This document shows, piece after piece, positions 2,300 to 52,851 of a DNA stretch of 64,000 nt (positions are counted from its first letter, which is position 1; each line of letters starts with the position of its first letter). Origin of the DNA: Mytilus galloprovincialis (lineage: Eukaryota; Mollusca; Bivalvia; Mytilida; Mytilidae). The notes under the pieces were generated by a model, which did no database searches, was not told where the DNA came from, and saw nothing but the letters and a program-made list of their open reading frames with translations. Made by a program: the position numbers and the translations under genes. The stretch lies in assembly GCF_965363235.1 (NCBI RefSeq), contig NC_134845.1, forward strand, positions 27,034,524-27,098,523, written 5' to 3'.

Positions 2300-2560
2300 G
2301 ACATTACATCAAATATCAGTTCAAAATAGTAAAGAAAGCCAAACAAGTTCAAAGTTGAAGTTCAAGAGCATTCATGACCCTTAATTCCAAATATTAGTGC
2401 CAAATATAACTAAGGTTATCTATGCCTGGGATAAGAAAATCCTTAGTATTAGAACAATTCCTACTTTTGCAAACAGTAAATATATAACAATGACCATATA
2501 CTTGTAATTGATGTGCATGTCAACACCGTAGTGGAGACTAACCACAGAATATAAACGTAA
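2300..2560 (-). repeat. hammerhead-repeat family E, body only
   Basis: It matches the body of the repeat at 28469-28766, including AAGAAAATCCTTAGTATT-like and ATGACCATATACTTGTAATT-like segments. The ribozyme end is missing or decayed in this copy. Confidence 0.6.
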
Positions 2561-5671: not shown

Positions 5672-8600
5672 CTATTTATATTGGACTACTCCTTGATACA
5701 AAAGTGGGCCGTTTTCATGCAAATACATTGCTGGCCAGACAATAAAGTCCACTTCATCACCATTTTTTGTATATCCCCTGAAGTTGTCAAGATTATCAGC
5801 AGTAAATGAATAATATAGAGGCGGATCAGTAATTGCACTATACCAAAAGAGTTCAAGGCAGGCGTCTACATAGGGTTTCAATGTTTCGTCTTTTTTATGT
5901 TCTTTATTCATTTCCTTTTCCCAAAAGTGCTACAAAAAACAAGAACTATAATACAAAATTTAAAAGCAAAGCTAAACATTTTTATTTAACTTAACAGTTT
6001 AGAATATCAGATCTTGAAAAGAAATTGAACAAATCGTTGACTATCAAAACTTAAAAAATTGTCAAGTTACATGTGTTACGAATTTACAGTTTAAGAAGGT
6101 TATAATATTTCTACAGTTGTGTATTTATCGAAACATCTTTGAATTTTCCATTTGATCTCTTTATCGTTGAAAACGGCATTAACAATCATCCCTTTATCCT
6201 TGGTTGCTATCAGACGCTTTACCTGTATAATTGTTGCTAGGGTGCTCTCTTCGAGGTCCGCGTTAGAAGTATAAATAGTAGGTAGCTATTCAGTGTAAAT
6301 TGTCATTCTTATCAGAGACGTTGATAGAAGAAGACTGGAAAGGTAGGACCGTTAATATTTGAAGACGAGAAGCAGGATTTGTCAAACAAAGTGGAGTGTT
6401 TGAAACCTGTTGAGAAAATATAAATAGTTTCGGTTCCGTAGAAGTTGTATAAACAGGGTTAGTGCTAAGGTTCTGCGTTCCACATCTCTCACTATTGCAG
6501 TGAGTGTTTGCTGTTAAACCATACCTTAGTGCTACCCTGTTCCAACAGTTACATAAATATATTTTAATAAAGTTTCATACGTCGAAAGTTTACAACAGTT
6601 TGAATAGTTTCCATACATTCGTTTTATTCAGGTTTCAGCCCGTTTGATACATTTCGGTTTCAAACTAGTTCCAAACATTTCGGTTTCAGACCAGTTTCAA
6701 ACATTTAGGTCTCAGACTAGTTCCAAACATTTAGGTTTCAAACTAGTTCCAAACATTTCGGTTTCAGACCAGTTCCAAACATTTAGGTCTCAGACTAGTT
6801 CCAAACATTTAGGTTTCAGACAATAGTTCCAAACCGTCTGACCCGTTTCAAACATTTAGGTTCCAGACAGGTTCCAAACATTTAGGTTTCAGACAATAGT
6901 TCCAAACCGTCTGACCAGTTTCAATCATTTAGGTTCCAGACAGGTTCCAAACATTTAGGTTCCAGACCAGTTTTATACATTTAGGTTTCAAACCAGTTCT
7001 ATACATTTAGGTTCCAGACTATAGTTTCAAACAGTTGGTTTTAAACAGTATCGGACAGAAAGGGTTTTAAACAGTTTTGATTCAACAAGTTCGGATTAGG
7101 TTGATAGGTGTTGAAATTCGTTTTATGTATTATAGTATTTGTTTCATATTTGATAGAGATAGTGTAAACATTTAATTGACTTTAGAACTTTTGAATTGCT
7201 TTTCAAATCCAGGAAACTGGTACGAACCCGAGGATAAAAATATCTAAACGTCCCCGCCCGGTTACACGTTACAAATGGTGGCTTAGCGGTGGGATTTGTC
7301 TAGCATTTCTCAAGCGTATTTTGTACATATAAATTGTATTTTATCATGAATTCACATAGGAAAGATAGTGTTTTATATGATCCTGACATAAGTTTAACTG
7401 AGGAACAGTTAAGTCAGGAAATAGATATTTTAACTGCCGAATTAGAAAAATATCGGCATGTTAAAGACAGATCAATTTCCCAGGTTGATACACCCCGAAC
7501 AGTGTTTAGACATAGTGATTCGGGGATAGGTTCAGTCAGGCGTTCCGAACAATTGTCAAAACAAACAAACTCCCCGATTTATGAAAAAAATGTAAGTAGT
7601 AGTGTAAATGGAGACGGTTTAGGAGCCCGACCGAGATCTTCAGTCAGGTTTGAAACATCAACACCTGCTGCGGAAAAACAGAGTTCGAAACATTTTACTG
7701 AACAATTACAATTCCCAATTAGTGACAAATTTGTCACAAAAAGAGCAAGTAAAACTGGTTTAACTCGTGATACCGAGTTTTGTGAAGATAAACAATCCTA
7801 TGCTTCGGATGGATACAAAAATAAAAACATAGTTAAAACTGCTACCTATGATGGGAAAGGTCCTTGGCTTGACTTTAGGTCACATTTTGATGCCTGTTCC
7901 CAAATTAATAACTGGACAGACAAAGAGAAAGGTCTGTATTTGGCCGTTTCTCTCAGGGGTCAGGCTCAAGGTGTTTTGGGAAACTTAACCCAGGAGTCTA
8001 GACAAGATTTCAAAGAATTGGTTAAGGCATTAGAAGAGCGTTTTTCTCCGTCTAACCAAACGGAGCTGTACAGAACTCAGCTCAGAGAGAGACACCAGAG
8101 AGCTGTAGAGACGTTGCCTGAGTTGGGCCAAGACATAAGAAGGTTAACTAACCTTGCATATGCAACTGCACCAAACGAAGTGCGGGAGACTTTGGCAAAA
8201 GAACAGTTCATAGACTCGTTAATAGATTCGGATATGAGGCTCCGAATAAAGCAGGCAAGACCTTCTGATTTAAATGACGCTATCAGACATGCAGTTGAGC
8301 TTGAGGCTTTTAACAAAGCTGAAAGCAAGAGGATTGAAGGTCAGGGGTTTTTACGAACTGCGTCTGAAAATAGTGCTGACAACATGACAAGTCAGCTTTT
8401 GAAAACCATGTCAGAGACATTAATAGAGTTGCAAAAAGAAATGAAAGACTTGAAACAAAACAATAAAGGGAGGAAGCAGGGTGGTGCCCCGCAGCCCTGT
8501 TCATTTAGGTGTTATGCTTGTGACGAGGTAGGCCACAGAGCATTTAACTGTCCTGCTTATCCAAACTTTCAATATAATTATCCGAACCCTAGATATCAGA

Positions 8601-11600
8601 ACAAACCTAAAACAAAATATATTAACCAAAACTATGAAAATTCAGATATGATACCGGGAAAAGTGGGAGTTCATAAACTATTTCCTGATGCAGGTATGTT
8701 CCTGAAAGCAAAAGTAAACGGAATTATCACAGATTTGTTGATAGATACTGGAGCTACAGTTACAGTTATCTCCACTAAAATGTTTAAGAAAATGTCAAAT
8801 ATGCCTTATTTAACTCCAACTGAAAGGGATATACTTACAGCTAGTGGACATTCGTTGCATGTGTCAGGCAAAACTGAACTTGAAATTGAAACTGATACGT
8901 TCAAATGTATAAGCGCTGCCATAGTTGCTGACATTAATGTAGATTGTATACTAGGGTTAGATTTCTTGAGAACACATGAAGCTAACATAAATATATACAA
9001 GGGGACTTTAACTATTAAGGGACATGAAGTTAGATTCTATGTCCAAGGTCACATAGGCTGTGATAGGGTTGCAGTATCAGAAACTATCAACACACACCCT
9101 AGACGTGAGATTGTTTTAAATGGAGTTATATTCAATGAAGTTCCTGACTCATTTAAAACAGAACTTGTTCAACCTAGAGATGACTATAAGAGAACTGACC
9201 AAGCAATAGTAGGTAGGGCTCTTGTTGCAAAAGGTAAAACTAATTTACTTCTTTGTGTAGAAGGAAAGTCTGAGATCAGATGTGAAGACTGTGAAACAGT
9301 TTTTAAGAAGCAGGAGTATCTAAAAAGACACACGAAAAACATTCACAGAATGGAGACTATTAAAAGGAGTAACAAAGTTGTTGAAAAGAAGGTTGGTGTT
9401 ACAGAAAGAGGACAAGATGATTTTGATCAGTCTGATCCTGAAAACCTGATAGAAGATATTTCGGATGACATTAGCAGTGTAAATAATCCGGATGATGCAT
9501 ATAGCGATGGGCAGGATTCTAAACTGAACGCATACTATAGTGAACCAGGCACAGACGGATCAGTCAATGATAAGGATGAAGAGAAGGAAGCGGTTTATCA
9601 TTGTACGGTATATTCTGAAGAAGACACGTCACAAAAGAAAGAAACTAAGAAGGTATATCAAACGCCGAAAGACGAAAACAGTGGCCCTACAGTAAGGAAA
9701 AGGTGTGCCCCATTACTAGTGTTGGCACCAACAAAGAGAAAGTGTCACTCCTTCATGCGAGGGGACAATATTGAGAAAGAAGTAAGTGAAGAAGTGGAAT
9801 ATCCTAAAAGACAGAAGTTTGTTACAAAACAACAAGCCACACAAACTAACGTAGTAAAAGAAAGCAAAATGGTTAGGATCATAACAAAGTATGTTGAGAA
9901 CGGTCACCAGATAGAAAAAGTTGAGGAGCATGAGATAGTTTGGTTGGTTTAAGAAATTAATGTCTGTTTATTGATGCAGGAAGCATCATATATATTAAAA
10001 CTGTATCATAAAACATGTTTTTGTTTGTTTTATTTCTGTTGTTTATAAATGTATATGTCTGTCCGTCGGATGGGGACGTAAAATCCGAGGTCCCGTGTTC
10101 AGGAAGTACCACGTCTTGTGCACGTTAAAGAACCCTTTACAACAACTCTTATTGAGGGGTCCATAAGTGGCCTGTTGTGAGGCAAAATTGTTTTAAACCG
10201 GGTTTTTTTTGGCAACACAACTTTTCAAGTGGTATTCAAAATAGAAAATTTGAAACGGTTTTATCTGGTCAAAATTTAATTTAAGTTCAGTATTCAGTTG
10301 CTTGTACAAATGTGAATTAAAGTAGGATATTTTGAAAATAGAAACTTAACAAACAAAACAGAAAGAACATGCAAGTCGAAAGAGGCTGACAGGAACCATG
10401 GAACTGTGAGTAGGCTAAGGTACCCCTAGGTCTGACGCTTGTCGACAGATTGTTGTAGGAAAGCCATTAGTTGGTTATCATGGTATAACCCTCGGTGTAC
10501 AAACAGTTGCTGGGAGAGATATTCTGCGGAATGAGTGGATACATTGAGGTTTAAAGTAGGACCTTGGTATGGTGTCAGCTAGTGTTAACGAGAACGGTTT
10601 TGATTGTGTTTTGATTTAGTGAGTACAAAATTGTAAACTCATGCGAGGACGCATGAAATCGGAGGCGTGGGTAGTGTTACGAATTTACAGTTTAAGAAGG
10701 TTATAATATTTCTACAGTTGTGTATTTATCGAAACATCTTTGAATTTTCCATTTGATCTCTTTATCGTTGAAAACGGCATTAACAATCATCCCTTTATCC
10801 TTGGTTGCTATCAGACGCTTTACCTGTATAATTGTTGCTAGGGTGCTCTCTTCGAGGTCCGCGTTAGAAGTATAAATAGTAGGTAGCTATTCAGTGTAAA
10901 TTGTCATTCTTATCAGAGACGTTGATAGAAGAAGACTGGAAAGGTAGGACCGTTAATATTTGAAGACGAGAAGCAGGATTTGTCAAACAAAGTGGAGTGT
11001 TTGAAACCTGTTGAGAAAATATAAATAGTTTCGGTTCCGTAGAAGTTGTATAAACAGGGTTAGTGCTAAGGTTTTGCGTTCCACATCTCTCACTATTGCA
11101 GTGAGTGTTTGCTGTTAAACCATACCTTAGTGCTACCCTGTTCCAACAGTTACATAAATATATTTTAATAAAGTTTCATACGTCGAAAGTTTACAACAGT
11201 TTGAATAGTTTCCATACATTCGTTTTATTCAGGTTTCAGCCCGTTTGATACATTTCGGTTTCAAACTAGTTCCAAACATTTCGGTTTCAGACCAGTTTCA
11301 AACATTTAGGTCTCAGACTAGTTCCAAACATTTAGGTTTCAAACTAGTTCCAAACATTTCGGTTTCAGACCAGTTCCAAACATTTAGGTCTCAGACTAGT
11401 TCCAAACATTTAGGTTTCAGACAATAGTTCCAAACCGTCTGACCCGTTTCAAACATTTAGGTTCCAGACAGGTTCCAAACATTTAGGTTTCAGACAATAG
11501 TTCCAAACCGTCTGACCAGTTTCAATCATTAAGGTTCCAGACAGGTTCCAAACATTTAGGTTCCAGACCAGTTTTATACATTTAGGTTTCAAACCAGTTC

Positions 11601-14600
11601 TATACATTTAGGTTCCAGACTATAGTTTCAAACAGTTGGTTTTAAACAGTATCGGACAGAAAGGGTTTTAAACAGTTTTGATTCAACAAGTTCGGATTAG
11701 GTTGATAGGTGTTGAAATTCGTTTTATGTATTATAGTATTTGTTTCATATTTGATAGAGATAGTGTAAACATTTAATTGACTTTAGAACTTTTGAATTGC
11801 TTTTCAAATCCAGGAAACTGGTACGAACCCGAGGATAAAAAATATCTAAACGTCCCCGCCCGGTTACACGTTACACATGTAAACAATCTCAAATCATAAA
11901 AGTATATTTTTAAATTTTTATAAGTGTTTTACCTGACACAGCAATGGAATAAACGTTCGAGAACATGACCGCCTTGCGTCCGTGAGGTGTTTTGTATAAG
12001 CACCGGAGTCTTCTTTCATCTCAGTCTTCAAAACAAAAATTTGAGAATGAACACAGTATAATCATAATTATCTTAACGTGTTTAAAATTGATAACACAGG
12101 AAAAGGTTAAATTGTTGGATTATGTTTTTCAAATTTTCGAATGTGTGTGAGGAGTTTATCATTAATAGGATATTTGTCAAATTTGGGGATTTACAAGTAT
12201 TCATAAATTGATAAGATTAATGTATCGTGGCTTTGTGATGCTCATGCAGATTTAAGACAAAAGTCAACAATTGCCGTTAAAGCCGCTTTATAAATTAAAA
12301 TTTGCAGTTGCTTCTTGTGGTGTTCTCAATTATATATGATATATTTCCATGTATCCCGTGGTTGTCTGAATTTAAAATTGAGAATGGAAATGGGGAATGT
12401 GTCAAAGGGACAACAACCCGACCAAATAAAAAACAACAGCAGAGGGTCACCAACGGGTCTTCAATGTAGCGAGAAATTCCCGCACCCGGAGGCGTCCTTC
12501 AGCTGGCCCCTAAACAAATATATACTAGTCCAGTGATAATGAACGCCATACTAATTTCCAAATGTACACAAGAGACTAAAATTAAAATAATACAAGACTA
12601 ACAAAGGCCAGAGGCTCCTGACTTGGGACAGGTGCAAAAATGCGGCGGGGTTAAACATGTTTGTGAGATCTCAACCCTCCCCTATACCTCTAACCAATGT
12701 AGAAAAGTAAACGCATAACAATACGCATTAAAATTCAGTTCAAGAGAAGTCCGAGTCTGATGTCAGAAGATGTAACCAAAGAAAATAAACAAAATGACAA
12801 TAATACATAAATAACAACAGACTACTAGCAGTTAACTGACATGCCAGCTCCAGACTTCAATTAAACTGACTGAAAGATTATGATTTCATCATATGAACAT
12901 CAGGCACAATCCTTCCCGTTAGGGGTTTAGTATCATACCATCATAACATATATGAGAAGAACATAACCCGTGTCATGCCAACAACTGTTTTTAGAATAAA
13001 TGTGTTTAGTTCCGATGCAAAGACCTTATCAGTGATTCAATATTAACGCCAAAATATGCAATCTTTAATGACTTGACAACAGTATCGTAATTATATCCCT
13101 TCTTAATAAGTCTGTTCAAAGGTTTTGTAAGTTTCTGAGGTGAATATTGACACCTTTGTGCTTTATAAAGAATATTTCCATAAAAAATTGGATGTGAAAT
13201 ACCTGAACGTATTAGAAGTCTGCATGTTGAGCTATATTTACGAATGACGTCTTTATACCGATGATAAAATTTAGTAAATGTTTTGACTAGTTTGTGATAT
13301 CGAAAACCCTGGTGTATCAATTTTTCAGTAATACATAAATTTCTCTCGTTAAAATCTAAAACATTGTTACATACACGAGCGAATCGTACAAGTTGAGATA
13401 TATAAACACCGTAAGATGGTGACAAGGGAACGTCACCGTCTAAAAACGGATAATTAACGATAGGAAATGAAAAATCATCCCTTTTATCATAAATTTTAGT
13501 ATTCAGCTTTCCATTAGTGATATAGATATCAAGATCGAGAAAAGGGCAGTGGTCATTGTTAGTATTAGCTTTATTTAAAGTAAGTTCAACAGGATAAATT
13601 TCATTAATATACATACTTAAGTCGTCATTATTGAGAGCCAAAATATCATCCAAATATCTAAAAGTATTATAAAATTTGTTTATCAGATGTTGTTTCGATG
13701 GGTCTTTGCTTATTTTTGTCATAAATTGTAACTCATAACAATACAAAAACAGGTCCGCAATAAGTGGTGCACAGTTAGTCCCCATTGGAATTCCGATAAT
13801 CTGACGATATACGGAATCCCCAAAGCGAACAAAAATGTTATCTAGTAAAAATTCAAGGGCATATATAGTATCAAAGCATGTCCAATTAACATAGTTTTTT
13901 TGTTTATTGCTACTAAAAAATGACCTAAAAGAGTTTGAACATATATATTCACATTCTGATTTTTTGAATGCCCATTTAATTAGGTGTGTGAATTTTTTCT
14001 TAATGAGAATGTGAGGCATAGTATAGTATAGTTTTAGCACGCTTCAGAGTGATAGTCGGGCTAAATCGCGACATTAAATGATTAATTTCTTTGTCAGATT
14101 TATTTTATGTATTAAACTCTTAGGCTTTGTTCTTCAATTCACAGTGTGGCGTGATCGTCAGTTAGCAAATAATTCCACTAAAACCGGTGCTAGGTGTCGT
14201 CTAAGACTTAAAGTAAGGTGAGGATTTTTGCTCCATGTTGAAGGTCTGACTATGATTTTAAGAAGATTATCAACAATAAAAGCACTGTTTCTTAAGTTTA
14301 CTTTATAGTGTTTTTTTGCTGTACATGTAACCATTTTGTGTTGTGTGTGGATACCAATATCCTTTCTTTTAATCAAATGACGTAGAAGACAATAACAATC
14401 AAAACCAAGGAGTAAACAAAGACTCACAAAACCAAAGGACATTTACATCAACAGTTATAAATAATAATCAACTTGTGTCACAGTAGTTGTTTTTATAAAT
14501 GCACGAAACCCTTAACCTATAAAAGTCCCAAATTTAAAAATGTAAAACAATTCAAACAAGATAACTAACGGCCTGATTACAGTACAGGACACAAATTATA

Positions 14601-24500: not shown

Positions 24501-25140
24501 TAAGTACACAATCAAAGAACGTCCAGGTTATGACCGTCTTTAATGCTTAAGATCGTTAATGAGAACCAAATAACAGTTTAGTATTTGTAACGGTTGATGA
24601 GGGATCTCGTAGTGTAAGTATTGGTTCTTGATTTGCTTGTTTGCTTGAGCGACAGTATTCAAAATCTGTGGCAACATAAGCAAGTTTTCCTTTGTAGCGA
24701 GCAAATTTTGGCCCTGTTTTTAAAAGCATAGTCCGTCCTTTATTTTCTTCTTGAAATAAGTATCATATGCACTGTTTCGATGCTTTCAAACTGTATGTTT
24801 AACTGTCACGGCATATTGTTAAGATATAGTAAAAAAGATTTTTCGCACGTAATACTTATGTTTGTCTTTTATTGCCGGAACGACAATTCTATTCGAAGAG
24901 TTGGAGTTTTTATTAGTTTGTTTGGTCTTTTGTCTGATTATTTTAATAATTAATTTTTTACGTTTTACACACAATCTCCAAATATTTATACAAGGACTAT
25001 TAAGTGTACCGATAAAAACAATTATTTTTACTATAAAAACAAAAAATGCTAGAAGTTATTGCAAATTCTAAGATTTTTTTGATATTTTTAGTTTTTACCT
25101 TTTTTTATCATGAATATAAACTCATCATAGATAACATGAT
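24501..25140. other. no gene recognised
   Basis: AT-rich intergenic sequence. A 69-codon hydrophobic frame at 24862-25071 has no recognisable features and is probably chance. Confidence 0.4.
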
Positions 25141-25144
25141 TGAA

Positions 25145-25310
25145 ATTTATATTTGCGCCAGACGCGCGTTTCGTTTTCAAAAGTGTCATCAGTGACGCTC
25201 GAATAAAAAAAAGTCAAAAAGGCCAAATAAAGTTCGAAGTTGAAAAACATTGAGGACCAAACATTCCTAAAAGCCAAATACGGCCAAAGTAATCTATCCT
25301 ATACATATCA
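25145..25310 (-). repeat. hammerhead-repeat family E, with degraded ribozyme
   Basis: On the minus strand the ribozyme region 25198-25155 keeps stem I (GCGUCA with UGGCGC), CUGAUGA, GAAAC, the GCGC loop and the GUC cleavage triplet. Stem II is poorly paired. The family body follows to the right. Confidence 0.65.
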
Positions 25311-25952: not shown

Positions 25953-28900
25953 CTATTCATTCTTTTCTACATTCTCTTCATTTTTCTCATATAGTTCGGG
26001 TTTATCATCCGTTTTGTCAGTCTCACGAATTTCAGTTTTCTCTTGAGGTTCGAGTTTAACATCTATTTTCCCTGCCACGTGATCCTCGGGTTTCTCTTGA
26101 AGTTTGGGTTTACCATCCAATTTCTCTGTCATTTGGTCAGCAGTTTGCTCTTCACATTCGGGTTTACTATTCATTTTGTCTGTTGCACGATCTTCAGTTT
26201 TCTCTTGAAGTTCCGGTTTTACATCTGTTTTGTCAGTCACATCATCTTTATCTGTCTTTTGAGGTTCGGGTTTATCCTCGTGTTTGTCAGTCATTTTGTA
26301 TTGGACAACACCTTTGTATAACAGCGGACCATATTCATGTAAATACATAGAAGGCCACACAACGTAGTCTATTTCATCACCACTCTTTGTGTATCCCCGG
26401 AAATCATCCACATTTGTATTTGCGTCAAATGCATAAACTAAGGGTGGATCACTGATGGCACTATACCAACAAAGCTCAATGCATTTATCCACATATGGCT
26501 GTAAGTCTTTAACTAATCCAGTATCTTTCTGTCTTTGCCAGTAACTCTGCAATGTGAACATTCAACGGCAGTTTTAGAAGATATCACTGTTCATTATACT
26601 GTCAAGCAATCAGTGATAACAAGATAGCGTTTAACAATCAAAATTACTCAAATCAATATCATAAGGAAAATTGAAAAAAAAATGTACTAATGTTTTGGAA
26701 GATATAATTTTGCTGAATGTAAAGTATCAAATCATATCTATGCATTTTTTTATGACGACTACGTATTCTATAAGAGCACTTAGTAGCGACATGTTTTCGC
26801 AGTTGTACATATACTCATCATATATACTAGGAATGAAATTTTGTTTTGCGTCATTGTATAGATCTCCAGAATTGTAATCTCATTTTTCATGCGTGTGTGT
26901 ATTAGAATGGCAGGTGAATCATGCATAGTAGGATATATTACCCTGTCAATCGAATCGGCGTAGCTACTTTTTTTTATACTTTATGTAATTTACTTAAATT
27001 TAGTTTGTTGTATTGATCTGTATTGAGTTGTCTTCTGATCAATTTATGAGATTAGAACATCGGTAAACATTTTTTTGAAAATGACGCAATTTATATAGTG
27101 GAAACAAATGATTTGAATTCAGATTTATTAACTCACCTCACACAATGTTGGTATAAACTGTTCAGCGAACATTCTTCTTGTTTCTTTTATTATTTTACTG
27201 TTTTGAACTGGAAAGTCATTTTTTACCTTTTTCTACAAATTAAAGTATATTGTTTAAAGGTTCGAATATTATTGGTTACTTGTTACAGAATTCAGAACTT
27301 TTAGATGATTTAACAAAATCATTTCTCAAAGGATTTTAAAAAAGGTATGCATTCCTAAGTTTACATGGTTCATTTAAGTTATTTTCATAAACAATGGAGG
27401 TCTTGTTAAATTCAAATAGGCTTATTTGGCTTCAGTTTCAAAGCCTCATAAACAGCACGAATAAAGCATATGACAGATAATTCAAGATGAATGTCAAGGG
27501 AAGACAAAATCTAAAGGATGAGATAAAAAGTTGTAATATTCAGCTTTGATGAAATATTGTAATACCTCCTTTGATTCTTTTTCTTCCAGAGAAAGCAGTA
27601 TGATGTGCAGGTCTGACAGCTGCATTCTTGCAACTTCACAACAGAAGTCCCAGCAACTCTAAAATGTTTATATGTTTGAATGTTAGATTGGTAACATATT
27701 CTGCCATCGGACTCGGACTTCTTTTACTGAGTTTAATTGAGCTATGTGTTTCTTTAAGGTAAGGACCCTCTAGCCTTTGTGGGTCATGTGGTATGTTTCT
27801 AAATTTTATGTTAATTTATATGTTTTGGAGTCTAGTTGTACGTCCAATTATCCTGAACTAGTACATAATTTTATTTAGGGACCAGACAAGAACCACCTCC
27901 GGGTGCGGAACTTCCATTCTCAATTTTGTGATATGATAAACTGTATTGAACTTATCTGACATGTGCATATAGTATTTCGCAATAAGAACAGAGAGAACAA
28001 ATTACGTAGAGATTGTTATCGTTTACCATATTAGTACCGCATGGTTTGTGTAGAGAATGGTCAAGAAATATCCTACAATGGATTTTGTTGGCGATTTGAA
28101 TTCGTTAAAATCATCACATATGAGTAGGTTTAATTATATTTTTTTAATTCATTTTTCTTAATTACTTACTTTGAAAATATCAATCAGTTTTCCACACGTC
28201 ATTTTCTCATCCATGTCTTCGGTGTTGATAATTTCATAGGCATCAGTCCAAGAATTATCGTAAAGACTATTGAATTTCTCTGCAAGTTTCTGCGGACGTT
28301 GAGGGTCACTCAAATCTGTTATGTAAGGATTGCCATCTGTCATTCTTTCTCCAGCTATCTTACTTAAACTATAAAAGAATAGATCACAGAAAGATGAATA
28401 AAGATAATTCTTCTGTTCTTTATTAACTTTGTTCTTTATAGGGACAATAGCTACGATATATGTAAATAGGTATCAAAGGTACCAGGATTATATTTTTAAT
28501 ACGCCAGACACGCGTTTCGTCTACATAAGACTCAGATCAAAATAGTTATAAAGCCAAACAAGTACAAAGTTGAAGAGCATTGAGGACCAAAAATTCAAAA
28601 AAGTTGTGCCACATACGCTTAAGATAATCTATTCCTGGTATTAGAAAATCCTTAGTTTTTCGAATAAATTCAAAGTTTTTTAACAGGAAATTTATAAAAA
28701 TGACCATATACATGTAATTGATAGTCATGTCAACACAGAAGTGCTGACTACTGGGCTGGTGATACCAAATATAAAATATGACTTGTTTTTGTTCAATCAT
28801 TAATGAAAGTGAAATAGTGAAATAATAATTCGCTTTCAGCAGACAGTATGCTTCAAATTTGTCAAAAAAAAGCTTGCAAGTGAATAATTCGACCTCATTG

Positions 28901-31900
28901 AATACGTATTCATGTGAACTTCAATTTAACCTCTTAGCTAGAGATGGATATTGCATTAATTGTAGGTGCTCAATTATTTAAAGAAGAAGAATGTCATCAC
29001 TTAAAGTGAATCAATTGAACATGGATCAAGTGAACATGAATTTAACAGCTTTAAAGGGATAATATTGCACTTCAAATAAATACAGTGTTTAAGAATTGTG
29101 CTTGAATAGTTTGTGTTTAAAGAAAACTAAGTATACCACTAACGCATACCGAATGTATAAACGTGTTACTCTTAATTAATGAAAATGACACTTTATAAAT
29201 TTCGTTCTTCCGAGGCGGTTTTCCTGATTAACCTTCCCTGAAAGCCAAGAATCTATAAATGCATAAATTTGTAGGTGCTGTTTCATAACCTAAAGTGATT
29301 TTAAAAGCACAGCCAAAATCATATAAGGTTAATTTTTGCCCGATTGGGTTCGGTCTACTTTTTCGGTAGCTTCCTTATCTACCAACGTGGAATTTTAATA
29401 TAATATGCCATTAATCATGCCATAACCAAAGCACAGACATCTGACCTGATGAAATCATCGTAACCTATACTATAACTAAGTTAAACTGATCTCACATAAC
29501 GTAAATAGTAACAAAATGTTAAAAGAGCATCTGTTAAAAAAATCAAACATCATAATATGAAGGACCATGGATTAGAAAGGAAATATGTACATTTTAAAAC
29601 TGAAAAAAAATCCTCAAGGGCTAATCTCGCCATTACGGAAGATTTCCTTAGAAGCTTTAAAACCAATATAACTCTTACCTAGTTCGTATTCGATCTACCT
29701 CTTTACGGAGACCAGCATTTTCAATGTTAAGTTTGTTCAGTTCTCCTTGTAGTCTAGAAGTCTCGTCTTTCAAACTTTTATCTACAGAAGTCTTTTTAAA
29801 ATCGTTAACTGTTTTTTCACGTTCCATACTTAACCGATTTTTTTGTTTTTTCTCCGCATCCACCTCAGCTAGCAGCTTATCATATTGCCTATTTCGTTCG
29901 AGTAACCTTTGATTCAATTCTTTATTTTCACTGAAAAACATACGGATTTGTTTCACAATGATAATGTAGAAAGTGTGTGTAAACATGAATTCAAAATACT
30001 TTGGTGCCTTTTGATAATATTCTTTTATTCGAAAATGCGGTGTTTTGTCTTAAAAACTGCATTTTGTGATATAAAGACAAAACAGAATATGAACTGCGTA
30101 ATGAATATATAATATGAGATTTTAAAGTTAAGTTAATACATCACTTCAAAACCAAAATAGTCTAGTATGACTTGCTTGAGATGGATCAAGTTAAATCATC
30201 AAATTCATATTTATAATCATCTAATAACATGTGTATATGTTTGTAAACAAATGATTCTTGAATGGCAGCTAGTCAACAAAATATTATTTTCACATCATTC
30301 TTCTCAAATCTCTTTCTAATATGTGCAATCTAATAGAACCTAAATGATATAAATTGATTAACCTATAATTGTTTGTAAATTATATATTTTTATTTTTATA
30401 CTAGCTTTTTTAATCTTTTGTTTTCATTGGCGAGCTTTTGATTATCTTCTTCTTTTTTCGAATCAAATACTTCATTCTGAAAAAAAGTAAAAGAAAAAGG
30501 AAAACAATTAACAAAAGACTTTATTGTACATAAATATAAATAACAATTAGAAAGAATGTTAGGTAGATTGCTTTTGCCTAGCTTTTAAACAAGTTGACAC
30601 GTTGATTTGTTTTAATGTTATATTTAACATTGCCATAAAAGCATGAGCCACAAAACCAGGTTCAACCCACCATTTTTTTCCTCTAAAAATGTCCTGTGCC
30701 AAGTCCGGAAAATGGCAATTGTTATTTTATAGTTCGTTTCTGTGTGTGTTGCATTTTAGTGTCGTGTTTTTGTTGTGCCGTTGTTCTCCTCTTATATTTT
30801 ATGTGTTTCCCTCAGTTTTAGTTTGTAACCTGGATTTTTTTTTCTCTCAATTGATTTGTGTTTCGAACAGCGGTAGACTACTGTTGCCATTATTTACTGC
30901 ATGTGTAGGATATATTATGGCATGTTAAGAAATTAACTATTAAGAACATTGGAATTATAGAGCACCTACTGCGGCAAAAAAGTAATAAACTCATATTATA
31001 ATAGAGACACTAGGCTAAACCTTTGTATATCCGACGCACGTTTCGTCTACATAAGACTCGTCAGAGACGCTCGAATAAAACGTCAAGTAAACTCCGAAGT
31101 TCAAGAGCTTTGAGGACCAAAAATACGAAAGCTTTAAAATACCGTTTTCATTTTTGTAATTTGCTGTTGTCAATTAGCGACATATAACTCCATAAATCTT
31201 TATTTAGCCTCATAATTAATTTTGAGATTTTGGGTTTTTAGCATATGAAAATATGATATGATTGACTATCCAATAAAGAACAAAGTTCCTTAATTTAAAT
31301 AACGATAGGCATTAATAATGGAGTGACATCTATGCTGTCAAGTAAGGTTTTATTAAGAAAGGGATTGATTAATTGGTGCTGTCTTAAAGGGGCACTAGCT
31401 ACGATATATATAAATAGTCTTAAATATGATTAATTTTTTTTTCGTTTAATCAATAATGAAAGTAAAATAGTGAACAAATAATTTTCTTTTACCAGACGAT
31501 ATTGTTCAAGTTTGTCAAATTAGCTAAGACATTTATGATGCAAGTGAATAATTCGACCTCATTGAATCCGTAGTCATGTGAACTTAAATTAAACCTTGTT
31601 CCCAGAAATAAATAACGCATGTAGTGTGCGTGTTCGATTATTTAAAGGAAAAGAATTTCAGCATTGAAATTGAAACAAAGGTTAATCATTTCATTGACTG
31701 ATTTGATCAACAAAATATTATTCGTATACAGGTAAAAATGATGATTAAAATATAATTTTAATCTATAATAAGAAATTAAAAAGACCTAGAAAAATCCAAA
31801 TGCACGTGTTCGCTTTGAACTGATACTTTTATTAATGTTTATATCGCTTATATTACCATCGGATGTTCTTGGGGGTCAACTCGATAGTTAATTGCGTAAC

Positions 31901-33274: not shown

Positions 33275-33570
33275 TAACCTGACCCGCGTTTCGTCTACAA
33301 ATGACTTATCAGTACAATCGAAACAAAATATTTTAATTTATAAAAAAATCTGTATCAAAGATTATGCATGGCAATGCAGAAGTTCTGACAACTTGACTGA
33401 AAACATTAGAACCAAAACGTCCACTAGCAGCGGCATTGTTCGAGTTGTTGTAAAAACTCATCTATGAAACTAGGCATATAACCTATTTTGGTATGCCAGA
33501 CGGGCGTTTCGTCAAAATAAACTACTCAGTGTGAAGCTCTAATGAATAATTGAAGGCCAAATAAAGACCC
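33275..33570 (-). repeat. two family E ribozyme relics
   Basis: Minus-strand fragments at 33275-33340 and 33478-33570 each keep GACGAAACGC next to a decayed CUGA core. They lie between the diverging copies 2 and 3. Confidence 0.5.
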
Positions 33571-38600: not shown

Positions 38601-41600
38601 ATTGTTGCTATTTTTTAACAAAATGTTGCAAAAATCTGTAACAAATAAAGACTAATTTTGAAACTCGTCCATAATCTTATATAGAATTTCTAGAATAAGT
38701 TAATGTCAAATGGTTCATTAGAAATCGATTGCAAAACATGAATGTCGAGCATTTATTAATTGTTTTGTTTTTAGTTTTTAAATTATCCAATTTCAGACTA
38801 AGTAAAGTTGCTGGTGAAAAGATGCTTGATAAGAATCCCCAAATAGCAGATTTGAGTGATTCACGTCGGCCACAGAAACTGGTGGAAATGATTTCTATTC
38901 TATATGATAACAAATGGACGGACGCATTTGAGAAATCGGAAGATAAGGGGGACGAAAAACAAATTTGTATTTACCTATTGGATATATTTAAGGTTATTTT
39001 CTTACTTATATCCCATTTTTTAAAGTCACTCCATATAAGTAAATGATTGTTTTTAATCGCTCACTATAAACGCACTTAATTATGTAATCAGTAATAGATT
39101 ACCTAGAGTGTATTTGTCGAAACCTTTTGGAATTTTGGTTCCTCAATGCTCCTCAATTTGTACTTTATTGGGGCTTTCAAACTTTTATGATGGTCGTCAC
39201 TGCTGAGACTTTTGTAGACGAAACGCATATCTGACGTACGAATTTGGTATATACAAAATTTAGTCCTGGTATCCATGATGAGTTTATTTACAACCACTGG
39301 GTCGATGCCACTGCTGGTGGAGATTTATTTCCCCGAGGGTATCACCAGCCCAGTAGACATGAATTATCATTGATATGGTTATATTGATAAATTAACTGTT
39401 TTTTTAAATTAGGCTTTTCTACCTCGGGCATAGATTACCTTAGCTGTTTTTGACATAACTTTTAGGAACGTTGGTCTTTAATGCTCTTCAACTTCGTACT
39501 TTATTTGGCCTTTTTAACTTTTTTGGATTCGAGCGTCACTGATGAGTCTTTTGTAGACGAAACGCGCGTCTGGCGTATATACAAAATTTAGTCCTGGTAT
39601 CTATGATGAGTTTATTGTTAAGCCTGATATCTTTAATTAGTTTATGTATGTATATTTGTAGTCTAGATGGATCAATGAGGCTTTAGACATTTTTACTCAT
39701 GCCAGATCATGTTTATCAATAAATAACAAGTAGAATTGTGAGCTACTGCTCACTTATGATACACCCACTCTAAGTATTTGTTAAAAGAATGTTGAAAAAA
39801 TGAATATGAAAATGCATACCGGTATTCACGTGAAGTATATTAACAAATTACAGGGAGGTCTCATTTGTAACTGAAAAAGGCGACGACAATTTCATGGACC
39901 AGACTAACATCCTTCTGAGCAAAAGTTCTATTAAGTTGAATCAGTTTTTACAAATTTTGTTTGCTCGTAAGTTTCAGATCTATCTTCGACTGTCTTTTTG
40001 CTTTCGCTCCGTAAAACTATTTTGATCCATGTTGTACAAATGAAAATATGTATTGGTCCGTATATATTTATTTAACATCAACTTTGATAATGGGGACATC
40101 AGCAGGCGAAAGCATTTGATATAATTTACATGTATATCGGAACTTCGGAACTAAACACATTTAATCTAAAAACAGTTGTTGTCATGACACGGGTTATGTT
40201 CTTCTCATATATGGGGACATCAGCAGGCGAAAGCATTTGATATAATTTACATGTATATCGGAACTTCGGAACTAAACACATTTAATCTAAAAACAGTTGT
40301 TGGCATGACACGGGTTATGTTCTTCTCATATATGTTATGATGGTATAATACTAAACCCCTAACGGGAAGGATTGTGCCTGATGTTCATATGATGAAATCA
40401 TAATCTTTCAGTCAGTTTAATTGAAGTCTGGAGCTGGCATGTCAGTTAACTGCTAGTAGTCTGTTGTTATTTATGTATTATTGTCATTTTGTTTATTTTC
40501 TTTGGTTACATCTTCTGACATCAGACTCGGATTTCTCTTGAACTGAATTTTAATGTGCGTATTGTTATGCGTTTACTTTACTACATTGGTTAGAGGTATA
40601 GGGGGAGGGTTGAGATCTCACAAACATGGTTAACCCCGCCGCATTTTTGCGCCTGTCCCAAGTCAGGAGCCTCTGGCCTTTGTTAGTCTTGTATTATTTT
40701 AATTTTAGTTTCTTGTGTACAATTTGGAAATTAGTATGGCGTTCATTATCACTGGACTAGTATATATTTGTTCAGGGGCCAGCTGAAGGACGCCTCCGGG
40801 TGCGGGAATTTCTCGCTACATTGAAGACCTGTTGGTGACCCTCTGCTGTTGTTTTTTATTTGGTCGGGTTGTTGTCTCTTTGACACATTCCCCATTTCCA
40901 TTCTCAATTTTATAAACTGTAATGAAACACCAGACGGTTATATTTTTGTCACTGCAGTCAACAACTGTAATAGCACATTAAGTTTTTACAAAAAACGTGT
41001 CACTGAATAAAAGAAATGATTAGAAATGTATGCTACCTTAATTTGTCTGCTTCTTATTGATATACGAGATTTGAAAATCTCCATAATTTTATCTTTAACT
41101 TGCATCCTTGGATGTTAAACAAATAGCTGCTAGCGTGGAAAAGATAATGAATATTTTCAGAAGCTCTGAATTTGTTAAAAAAAAATGTAGGTCCTTAACT
41201 GAAGGTAGAATGATCTATAATATATTGTTGTACGTTTGTTATAGGAATGCTGGAATTATTGCAAAGAAACTTGTGAACAACAGACCAAAATCTTAGAACA
41301 AAACCTACTGCTAGCATCAGAAAACAAGGTAATTTTGTTAATAAATTCCAATGTTATGCGCAAATGCCGTCATGGTAATCTTTTTCATTTTGATCGATAA
41401 TGAATCCACCAAAACTCTCTCCGAGGTTTATAGTAGTTTGAACAGTCCTTAGTTACATATACAGGTATATAACACGCAGAGATAGGTGAAAATGCTAAAA
41501 TTCTTAAAAAACAAAATCTTTTAAGTAATTAGTGATTTACTGAACCCCTATTTTTGACATTTTTACCTTAGCTATTATATCTGTTTGTTTGTCAATATAG

Positions 41601-52265: not shown

Positions 52266-52851
52266 CAAAGGAGTAGGTCCGGTAAGGGCCGATTTTGGCC
52301 CCAAATTTCAGTTTCATCTAACGAGATATTAAAAACACTTTTTAAACACTTAATTGTCTATTTCAATTGATTCGATTAGTTTATGTAAAAGATTTTAACT
52401 GATTCAGTCATTAAAAACGCTCCGATTGAAGCTTAAATATGAAAAATCTATCAAATATGCCAAAAAACGTCACTTTTCAGATGGTTTTCGTCAAAAATGA
52501 AAGTGGCCGCATCCGTGTTCATCCTCAACCTTTATATATGTTATGTATTATCATCAAATACAACTTATATTTCAATATTATGAATGAACACGAATGCGGC
52601 CACTTTCATTTAAGACGGAAACTGTCTAAAATTTAACTAAAATGCTATAATTATGAAGATTTCAGTAATTTAGCATGACTTTATGATGCTAGTACACGAT
52701 ATATGTGCATTGTATTGTCAAAAACAGCACATATTTATGTAGCAGAAGCATTCTACTTTCCAAAAAATAGCTAAAAGATTACATTTTCACAATTTTGCAA
52801 AACTGCTTAATTTTGGGGCCAAAAAGGGGTCTTACTGAACCTACTCCTTTG
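52266..52851. repeat. nested foldback (MITE-like) element
   Basis: Outer inverted ends CAAAGGAGTAGGTCCGGTAA (left) and ACTGAACCTACTCCTTTG (right), extending inward through TTTTGGCCCC / GGGGCCAAAA. A second inverted pair lies inside: 52499-52522 and 52584-52607 match over 24 bases with one mismatch (GAAAGTGGCCGCATCCGTGT arm). No transposase frame. It lies between copy 4 and CHM. Confidence 0.85.

Follow-up and report, generated by a model that had tools for sequence, protein, structure and literature searches.

A decayed retrozyme copy in Mytilus galloprovincialis and the copying of its hammerhead-bearing relatives

How is a short non-coding unit that carries hammerhead ribozymes (HHRs) copied through a genome, and does its spread depend on a ribozyme that works? 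The question is raised by a locus of the mussel Mytilus galloprovincialis, within a window of 64,000 nucleotides (the whole stretch of DNA analysed here), where a sequence-only reading had described a retrozyme-like tandem unit bracketed by two hammerheads. The copy found there, old and broken, is a decayed and ordinary member of its kind. From the comparison with its relatives we think it likely that it descends from a mussel-type non-LTR retrozyme which would be copied by way of an RNA circle, from a fixed starting point, and for which the hammerhead would be needed.

The window element and its family

The insertion (Table 1) belongs to subfamily A, with loop II UUUUGUA; it begins inside a unit and ends at the standard point of the family. 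The extent first proposed, 39080..39612, has to be moved at both limits. Its two type I hammerheads lie on the + strand at a spacing of 339 nt, from cleavage after 39231 to cleavage after 39570, as had been read before. The upstream one is broken: its core is CUGCUGA (A6 to C), stem II contains an A-A mismatch and the pairing of stem III (ACGCAUAU) is lost. The downstream one has, as claimed, all the catalytic elements (CUGAUGA, GAA and C17) and a palindromic stem III, ACGCGCGU. The suggested check with Infernal and Rfam does return it as RF00163, with an E value of 3.4e-4 over the whole window and 3.4e-6 over the 651 bases searched; its 32.5 bits fall below the gathering score of 34, so that a search at the gathering threshold reports nothing. 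Since the upstream hammerhead is broken, the locus alone would be cut at best at 39570/39571, without release of a 339-nt monomer.

The description of the unit as a full monomer has to be abandoned: lap 2 lacks 14, 4 and 19 nt with respect to the subfamily majority, and one of these deletions takes out the hairpin that relatives keep in the conserved structured domain. The two laps are also uneven, with 13.3% vs 3.7% substitutions over 188 columns (p 0.0013, uncorrected). Lap 1 (39094-39288) has no relative above 82% among 40 scored of 2,989 candidates, and parts of lap 2 match other copies at up to 97%; the higher divergence of lap 1 may correspond to an age break or to another subfamily.

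Table 1. Retrozyme-related features of the window, with strand and basis of the assignment
Feature	Position	Strand	Basis
Two-lap retrozyme insertion	about 39088..39616	+	tandem-reference BLAST
HHR1, broken; cleavage would follow 39231	39194..39237	+	sequence reading
HHR2, complete by sequence; predicted cleavage 39570/39571	39533..39576	+	Rfam RF00163, 32.5 bits
Tail, cleavage site to standard 3′ end (..GTTTATT)	39571..39616	+	sequence
Conserved structured domain, 3′ of standard end point	39290..39361	+	comparison with relatives
Decayed relative, two broken HHRs	33278..33566	-	sequence comparison
Relative; HHR 31027-31070	31005..31130	-	30 bits, E 0.0023
Decayed relative, subfamily B, HHR partly deleted	28461..28766	-	sequence comparison
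Small remnant (tail part), additional to the earlier reading	26802..26844	-	sequence comparison
Decayed relative, subfamily A; HHR with its core but a broken stem II	25116..25297	-	22.2 bits
Decayed relative, subfamily B-like, HHR lost	2335..2540	-	sequence comparison

Judged by its described features, the element is a member of an established group, the non-LTR retrozymes of animals, in agreement with the first identification: type I hammerheads, a short tandem unit of low GC (37.1%), no stop-to-stop frame of at least 110 aa across 39088-39616 and thousands of dispersed relatives. Units of this group are about 170-400 bp long and bracketed by HHRs, have no LTR, PBS or PPT, and, where a TSD is present, it exceeds 4 bp. 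Furthermore, no frame of at least 110 aa with a reverse transcriptase (RT) and a GIY-YIG endonuclease, a Penelope-like trait, occurs at 39088-39616. The mussel precedent that had been mentioned is also real, non-LTR retrozymes with circular RNAs having been reported in M. galloprovincialis itself (Cervera and de la Pena, 2020; PMC7229834); a review from the same field is also available (PMC7761336). The Mytilus retrozymes of PMC7229834 are alike in their type I HHR, tandem units, low GC, dispersed copies and lack of a coding frame, and two HHR families of similar sequence are reported there. Their tandem unit measures 350-390 bp; neighbouring HHRs in the relatives studied here are mostly 336-374 bp apart (339 in the window). 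About 5,000 HHR copies are given there; here the two patterns together have 17,059 exact matches. Plant LTR retrozymes, as outlined in PMC7229834, similarly have hammerheads flanking a non-coding unit and a circRNA intermediate, but they differ in their type III HHR, circles of 600-800 nt, LTR, PBS, PPT and 4-bp target-site duplication (TSD).

The genome searched comprises 1.385 Gb in 331 contigs. It contains 13,114 matches to the exact HHR pattern, and 3,945 to that of a third subfamily, C (stem II GAC/GUC, stem III AUGCGCAU); the controls, reversed in the first case, gave 0 for both. The exact HHR scan of viral contigs gave 0 matches. Of the 146 HHRs cut from 60 loci and the window, 93 are distinct; removal of 15 on account of their length left 78, and trimming reduced these to 73. 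In this alignment 94.3% of the stem cells pair and paired changes occur in all three stems. Cells altered on both sides number 18, vs 2.9 in shuffles (0/500), and the covariation score is 0.111, vs 0.068 in shuffles (0/500) and 0.068 for the best slid version. The signal is weaker by stricter measures, either pairs with a double change (5 vs 2.3; 25/500 shuffles) or further pair types (16 vs 14.1; 64/500 shuffles), and, since four C sequences contribute most of the double changes, few events lie behind them. That the downstream hammerhead is a product of chance or a dead relic without biology would suit its score just under the Rfam gathering threshold and its broken upstream neighbour; the 13,114 exact relatives, with none in the control, and the covariation of the hammerhead make this hardly credible.

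Two structural candidates were not retained. The palindromic stem III had been thought able to work as a dimer; the drawn monomer hammerhead has -3.4 kcal/mol vs a minimum free energy (MFE) of -13.1, and the dimer drawing, which closes one stem I only, has -20.8 vs a cofold MFE of -34.6. As both energies lie above their MFEs, nothing is concluded on a dimer hammerhead. Nor does a highly self-paired circle emerge: compared with 20 mononucleotide shuffles each, 36 circular folds are lower by about 0.9 sd on average, and five of them are higher.

As regards the other copies in the window, decay had been attributed to those at 2.3, 25.2, 28.5, 31.0, 33.3 and 33.5 kb. This is correct for the first three. 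The HHR at 31.0 kb has a complete core and a weak stem I and is not plainly dead, and what had been read as two copies, at 33.3 and 33.5 kb, is a single decayed stretch. The long activity deduced from them fits the family, since relatives span from strongly diverged copies to an array in which the 41 units read do not differ.

Where copies begin and end, and how their laps compare

Arrays were sampled from 40 loci that are the first HHR pattern matches on contig C1 and from 20 loci of a BLAST list; 91 were cut, and the 80 with at least 80 bp and 40 bp of flank were kept. In 72 of the 80, the 3′ end falls at the same homologous position, 33-54 nt beyond the cleavage site on its 3′ side. All 35 arrays of subfamily A end at +45 to +54 and 35 of the 45 assigned to B at +40 to +47, the ends within these peaks amounting to 43/51 in pattern-chosen loci and 27/29 in the rest. 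Two of the ten B misses (L042 and one array of L057) prove to be C copies and end where that subfamily has its homologous point, at +33; a C array in L030, not one of the 80, ends there as well. The eight arrays that end elsewhere are in L013, L022, L031, L034, L036, L048, L051 and L061. In A, B and C the end point lies directly before the ACNACCACUGGG domain (in C, one base more or less). In this structured domain double changes affect 4 of 16 predicted pairs, chiefly in one hairpin, with a covariation term of only -0.24 kcal/mol (31 of 34 prepared sequences).

The 5′ ends vary. Those of in-peak A arrays are compatible with a uniform distribution (KS p 0.79), those of in-peak B arrays are not (KS p 0.002), with many short copies. 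Within 5 nt of the cleavage site lie 4 of the 80 5′ ends, 2.4 being expected; there is no pile-up of the kind that linear self-cleaved monomers would produce. In 70 arrays no general TSD stands out clearly above control: the mean common stretch is 7.09 (control 6.86, sd 0.09), with at least 10 nt in 2 arrays (control 1.7) and at least 12 nt in 1 (control 0.1), the one clear case, L020, with 15 nt. The flanks contain no common repeat on both sides, only scattered common repeats, and a common upstream element was discarded on this basis.

Fixed 3′ and varied 5′ ends would also be accounted for by a SINE-like linear route, in which uncut multi-unit transcripts acquire a fixed 3′ end by termination or processing and are reverse transcribed from it, hammerhead and circle being uninvolved. 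The conserved motif GGGTCGATGCC lends itself to this explanation, as we take it to be like the B box of RNA polymerase III promoters; an A box was not established. The end points of A and B, on the other hand, have no common run of at least 4 T. Together with the lap and variant data given below, this leads us to consider the linear route unlikely.

The laps of an array look equally old and of one origin. Adjacent laps were compared in 70 pairs, and in none is the difference in divergence significant after Bonferroni correction; the pair of the window element is the most uneven. Off-majority variants are in common within arrays at a median of 0.45 in A (77 pairs) and 0.64 in B (27 pairs), and between arrays at 0.11 and 0.00 respectively; laps have variants in common as if taken from one unit, which speaks against the linear route. 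Among the matches listed, from which 31 arrays were typed, leaving out a few HHRs beyond a gap, the arrays with at least three HHRs have a single period in 9 of 12 cases (e.g., 349 x 7 at C13:26,008,803) and mixed periods in 3. In the extreme case, at C1:433,273-448,382, 44 HHRs are spaced exactly 350 nt, and the 41 of 43 units that were read are all identical; this array has the standard 3′ end point (in L030) and starts inside a unit (in L073).

Such arrays could also be read as satellites: single units would insert and arrays would grow mainly by unequal crossing-over or through DNA circles, with the hammerhead as a passenger in the long ones. The mixed periods in 3 of the 12 arrays are in line with this, and perfectly uniform long arrays can stem from recent amplification. 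Against it, 16 of the 43 in-peak arrays from pattern-sampled loci exceed one lap, and they are dispersed and have the same end point; as the shared variants also avoid the hammerhead, growth of this kind seems to us quite improbable as the main explanation.

Shared and private variants in relation to the ribozyme

The laps of an array offer a way of separating what preceded insertion from what followed it: variants present in at least two laps were taken as mostly pre-insertion and single-lap (private) ones as mostly younger, a distinction that conversion between laps could blur. In all 37 arrays, the HHR holds 16 of 224 shared and 104 of 657 private variants (p 0.0004), and its core alone 0 shared and 20 private (p 0.003). 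As this first test mixed in loci selected for an intact HHR, it was rerun on subsets of the arrays, with CpG and with CpG left out. For the 19 arrays selected by other means than the HHR, the counts are 9/127 shared vs 73/405 private (p 0.0013) and, without CpG, 2/119 vs 39/359 (p 0.0006); a weak bias may remain here, as the query for the 20 BLAST-chosen loci itself carries an intact HHR. The effect is not significant in the 18 pattern-chosen arrays alone (p 0.118; 0.39 without CpG), and for the core by itself both subsets give borderline values (p 0.048 to 0.055).

Without CpG, shared variants per column are lowest in the HHR (0.0076), followed by the structured domain (0.017), the tail (0.019) and the middle (0.030-0.032), and private variants number 0.056-0.085 in every region. 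The region test gives a Fisher p of 0.005 for the HHR and of 0.0005 for an excess in the middle-5′ part, the others not being significant. The hammerhead is the most constrained part before insertion, which counts against uncut linear transcripts as the source. Altogether, the relatives hint that a working ribozyme may be required to spread.

A proposed copying cycle and its candidate enzyme

The cycle that we favour would begin with the transcription of genomic arrays. Type I hammerheads would cut the transcript into unit-length RNA, a step to which the HHR constraint in moved copies lends support, and the unit would be closed into a circle, as reported by others for Mytilus. A reverse transcriptase, primed at the target, would then begin at a single position next to the structured domain, 33-54 nt 3′ of the cleavage site, and go round the template for anything from part of a lap to many laps. 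Copying would break off at differing positions, as a rule leaving no recognisable target-site duplication, and the inserted copy would decay freely. Against this cycle, conversion between laps could also account for variants in common, and unequal crossing-over for long arrays. In a bolder form, which we advance tentatively and judge somewhat less probable than its opposite, the reverse transcriptase would load at one site by the structured domain and round the RNA circle more than 40 times per insertion, only elements with a working hammerhead would enter, and the arrays would be a record of rolling-circle reverse transcription in the germ line.

As for the copying enzyme, the foremost candidate would be a Penelope-like element (PLE): PAc of Anolis (PMC11167929), which has been studied in vitro, likewise starts internally, downstream of a hammerhead. 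PAc starts after a cut at ATT, at an AC-rich stem-loop in its ORF; likenesses to the mussel elements are the hammerhead upstream of an internal start by a stem-loop, the tandem or partial-tandem copies and the AT-rich cut at ATT. It differs in encoding RT and endonuclease and in having the start inside the ORF, and its HHR mutants still insert in vitro, which counts against a need for the hammerhead. In PMC7229834, too, circRNAs are put forward as templates and PLEs are regarded as a strong candidate. The portions of PMC7229834, PMC7761336 and PMC11167929 at hand contain no mapped start site for a retrozyme, and the fixed 3′ point, the arrays from one template, subfamily C and the avoidance of the ribozyme by shared variants go beyond what is found in that of PMC7229834. 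The mapped end point and the comparison of shared and private variants make the copying of retrozymes and the role of their hammerhead answerable from assemblies, and they name a defined RNA for reverse transcription in vitro.

A partner enzyme with a matching tail was looked for among two types of RT and not found. The motif of PMGSPLSP type has 3 exact matches, and in L069-L071 no hammerhead is found in Rfam at E values up to 1; the RT of PMGTNCAP type has an unrelated 3′ UTR end in the one window case examined. Fragments of RT are present in 14 of the 60 sampled loci and at four places in the window, and, their density being about equal in both, no association is claimed.

Several observations concern these and other elements in their own right. 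One RT lineage dominates, with 5,384 exact genome matches to PMGTNCAP vs 3 to PMGSPLSP. At 12373-14043 (-), an RT frame (13006-14043) with the motif PMGTNCAP, preceded by an in-frame TGA and weakly resembling the PLE-like RT found in L069, is followed by a SECIS_1 match; the 3′ UTR of this element recurs at 98% at 40266-40912. The SECIS_1 matches here and at 40145-40912 (+) score 33.8 and 32.3, just under the gathering score of 35. We take the combination of RT frame and SECIS_1 to be a lead to selenoprotein-coding PLEs, on which a literature search found no paper. At 6626-11642 (+), an 882-codon frame that matches gag, zinc knuckle and aspartyl protease lies between two near-identical arrays of a 26-bp unit, which are 4,601 bp apart and have no pol frame of at least 110 aa between them. 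This is probably an LTR element whose LTRs contain a satellite. A long inverted repeat at 52481-52628, which matches MIR161 on both strands far under the gathering score, is probably a MITE-like element. Finally, a frame at 25953-26561 (-) matches Mitochondria-eating protein (MIEAP) and contains a 54-bp tandem repeat.
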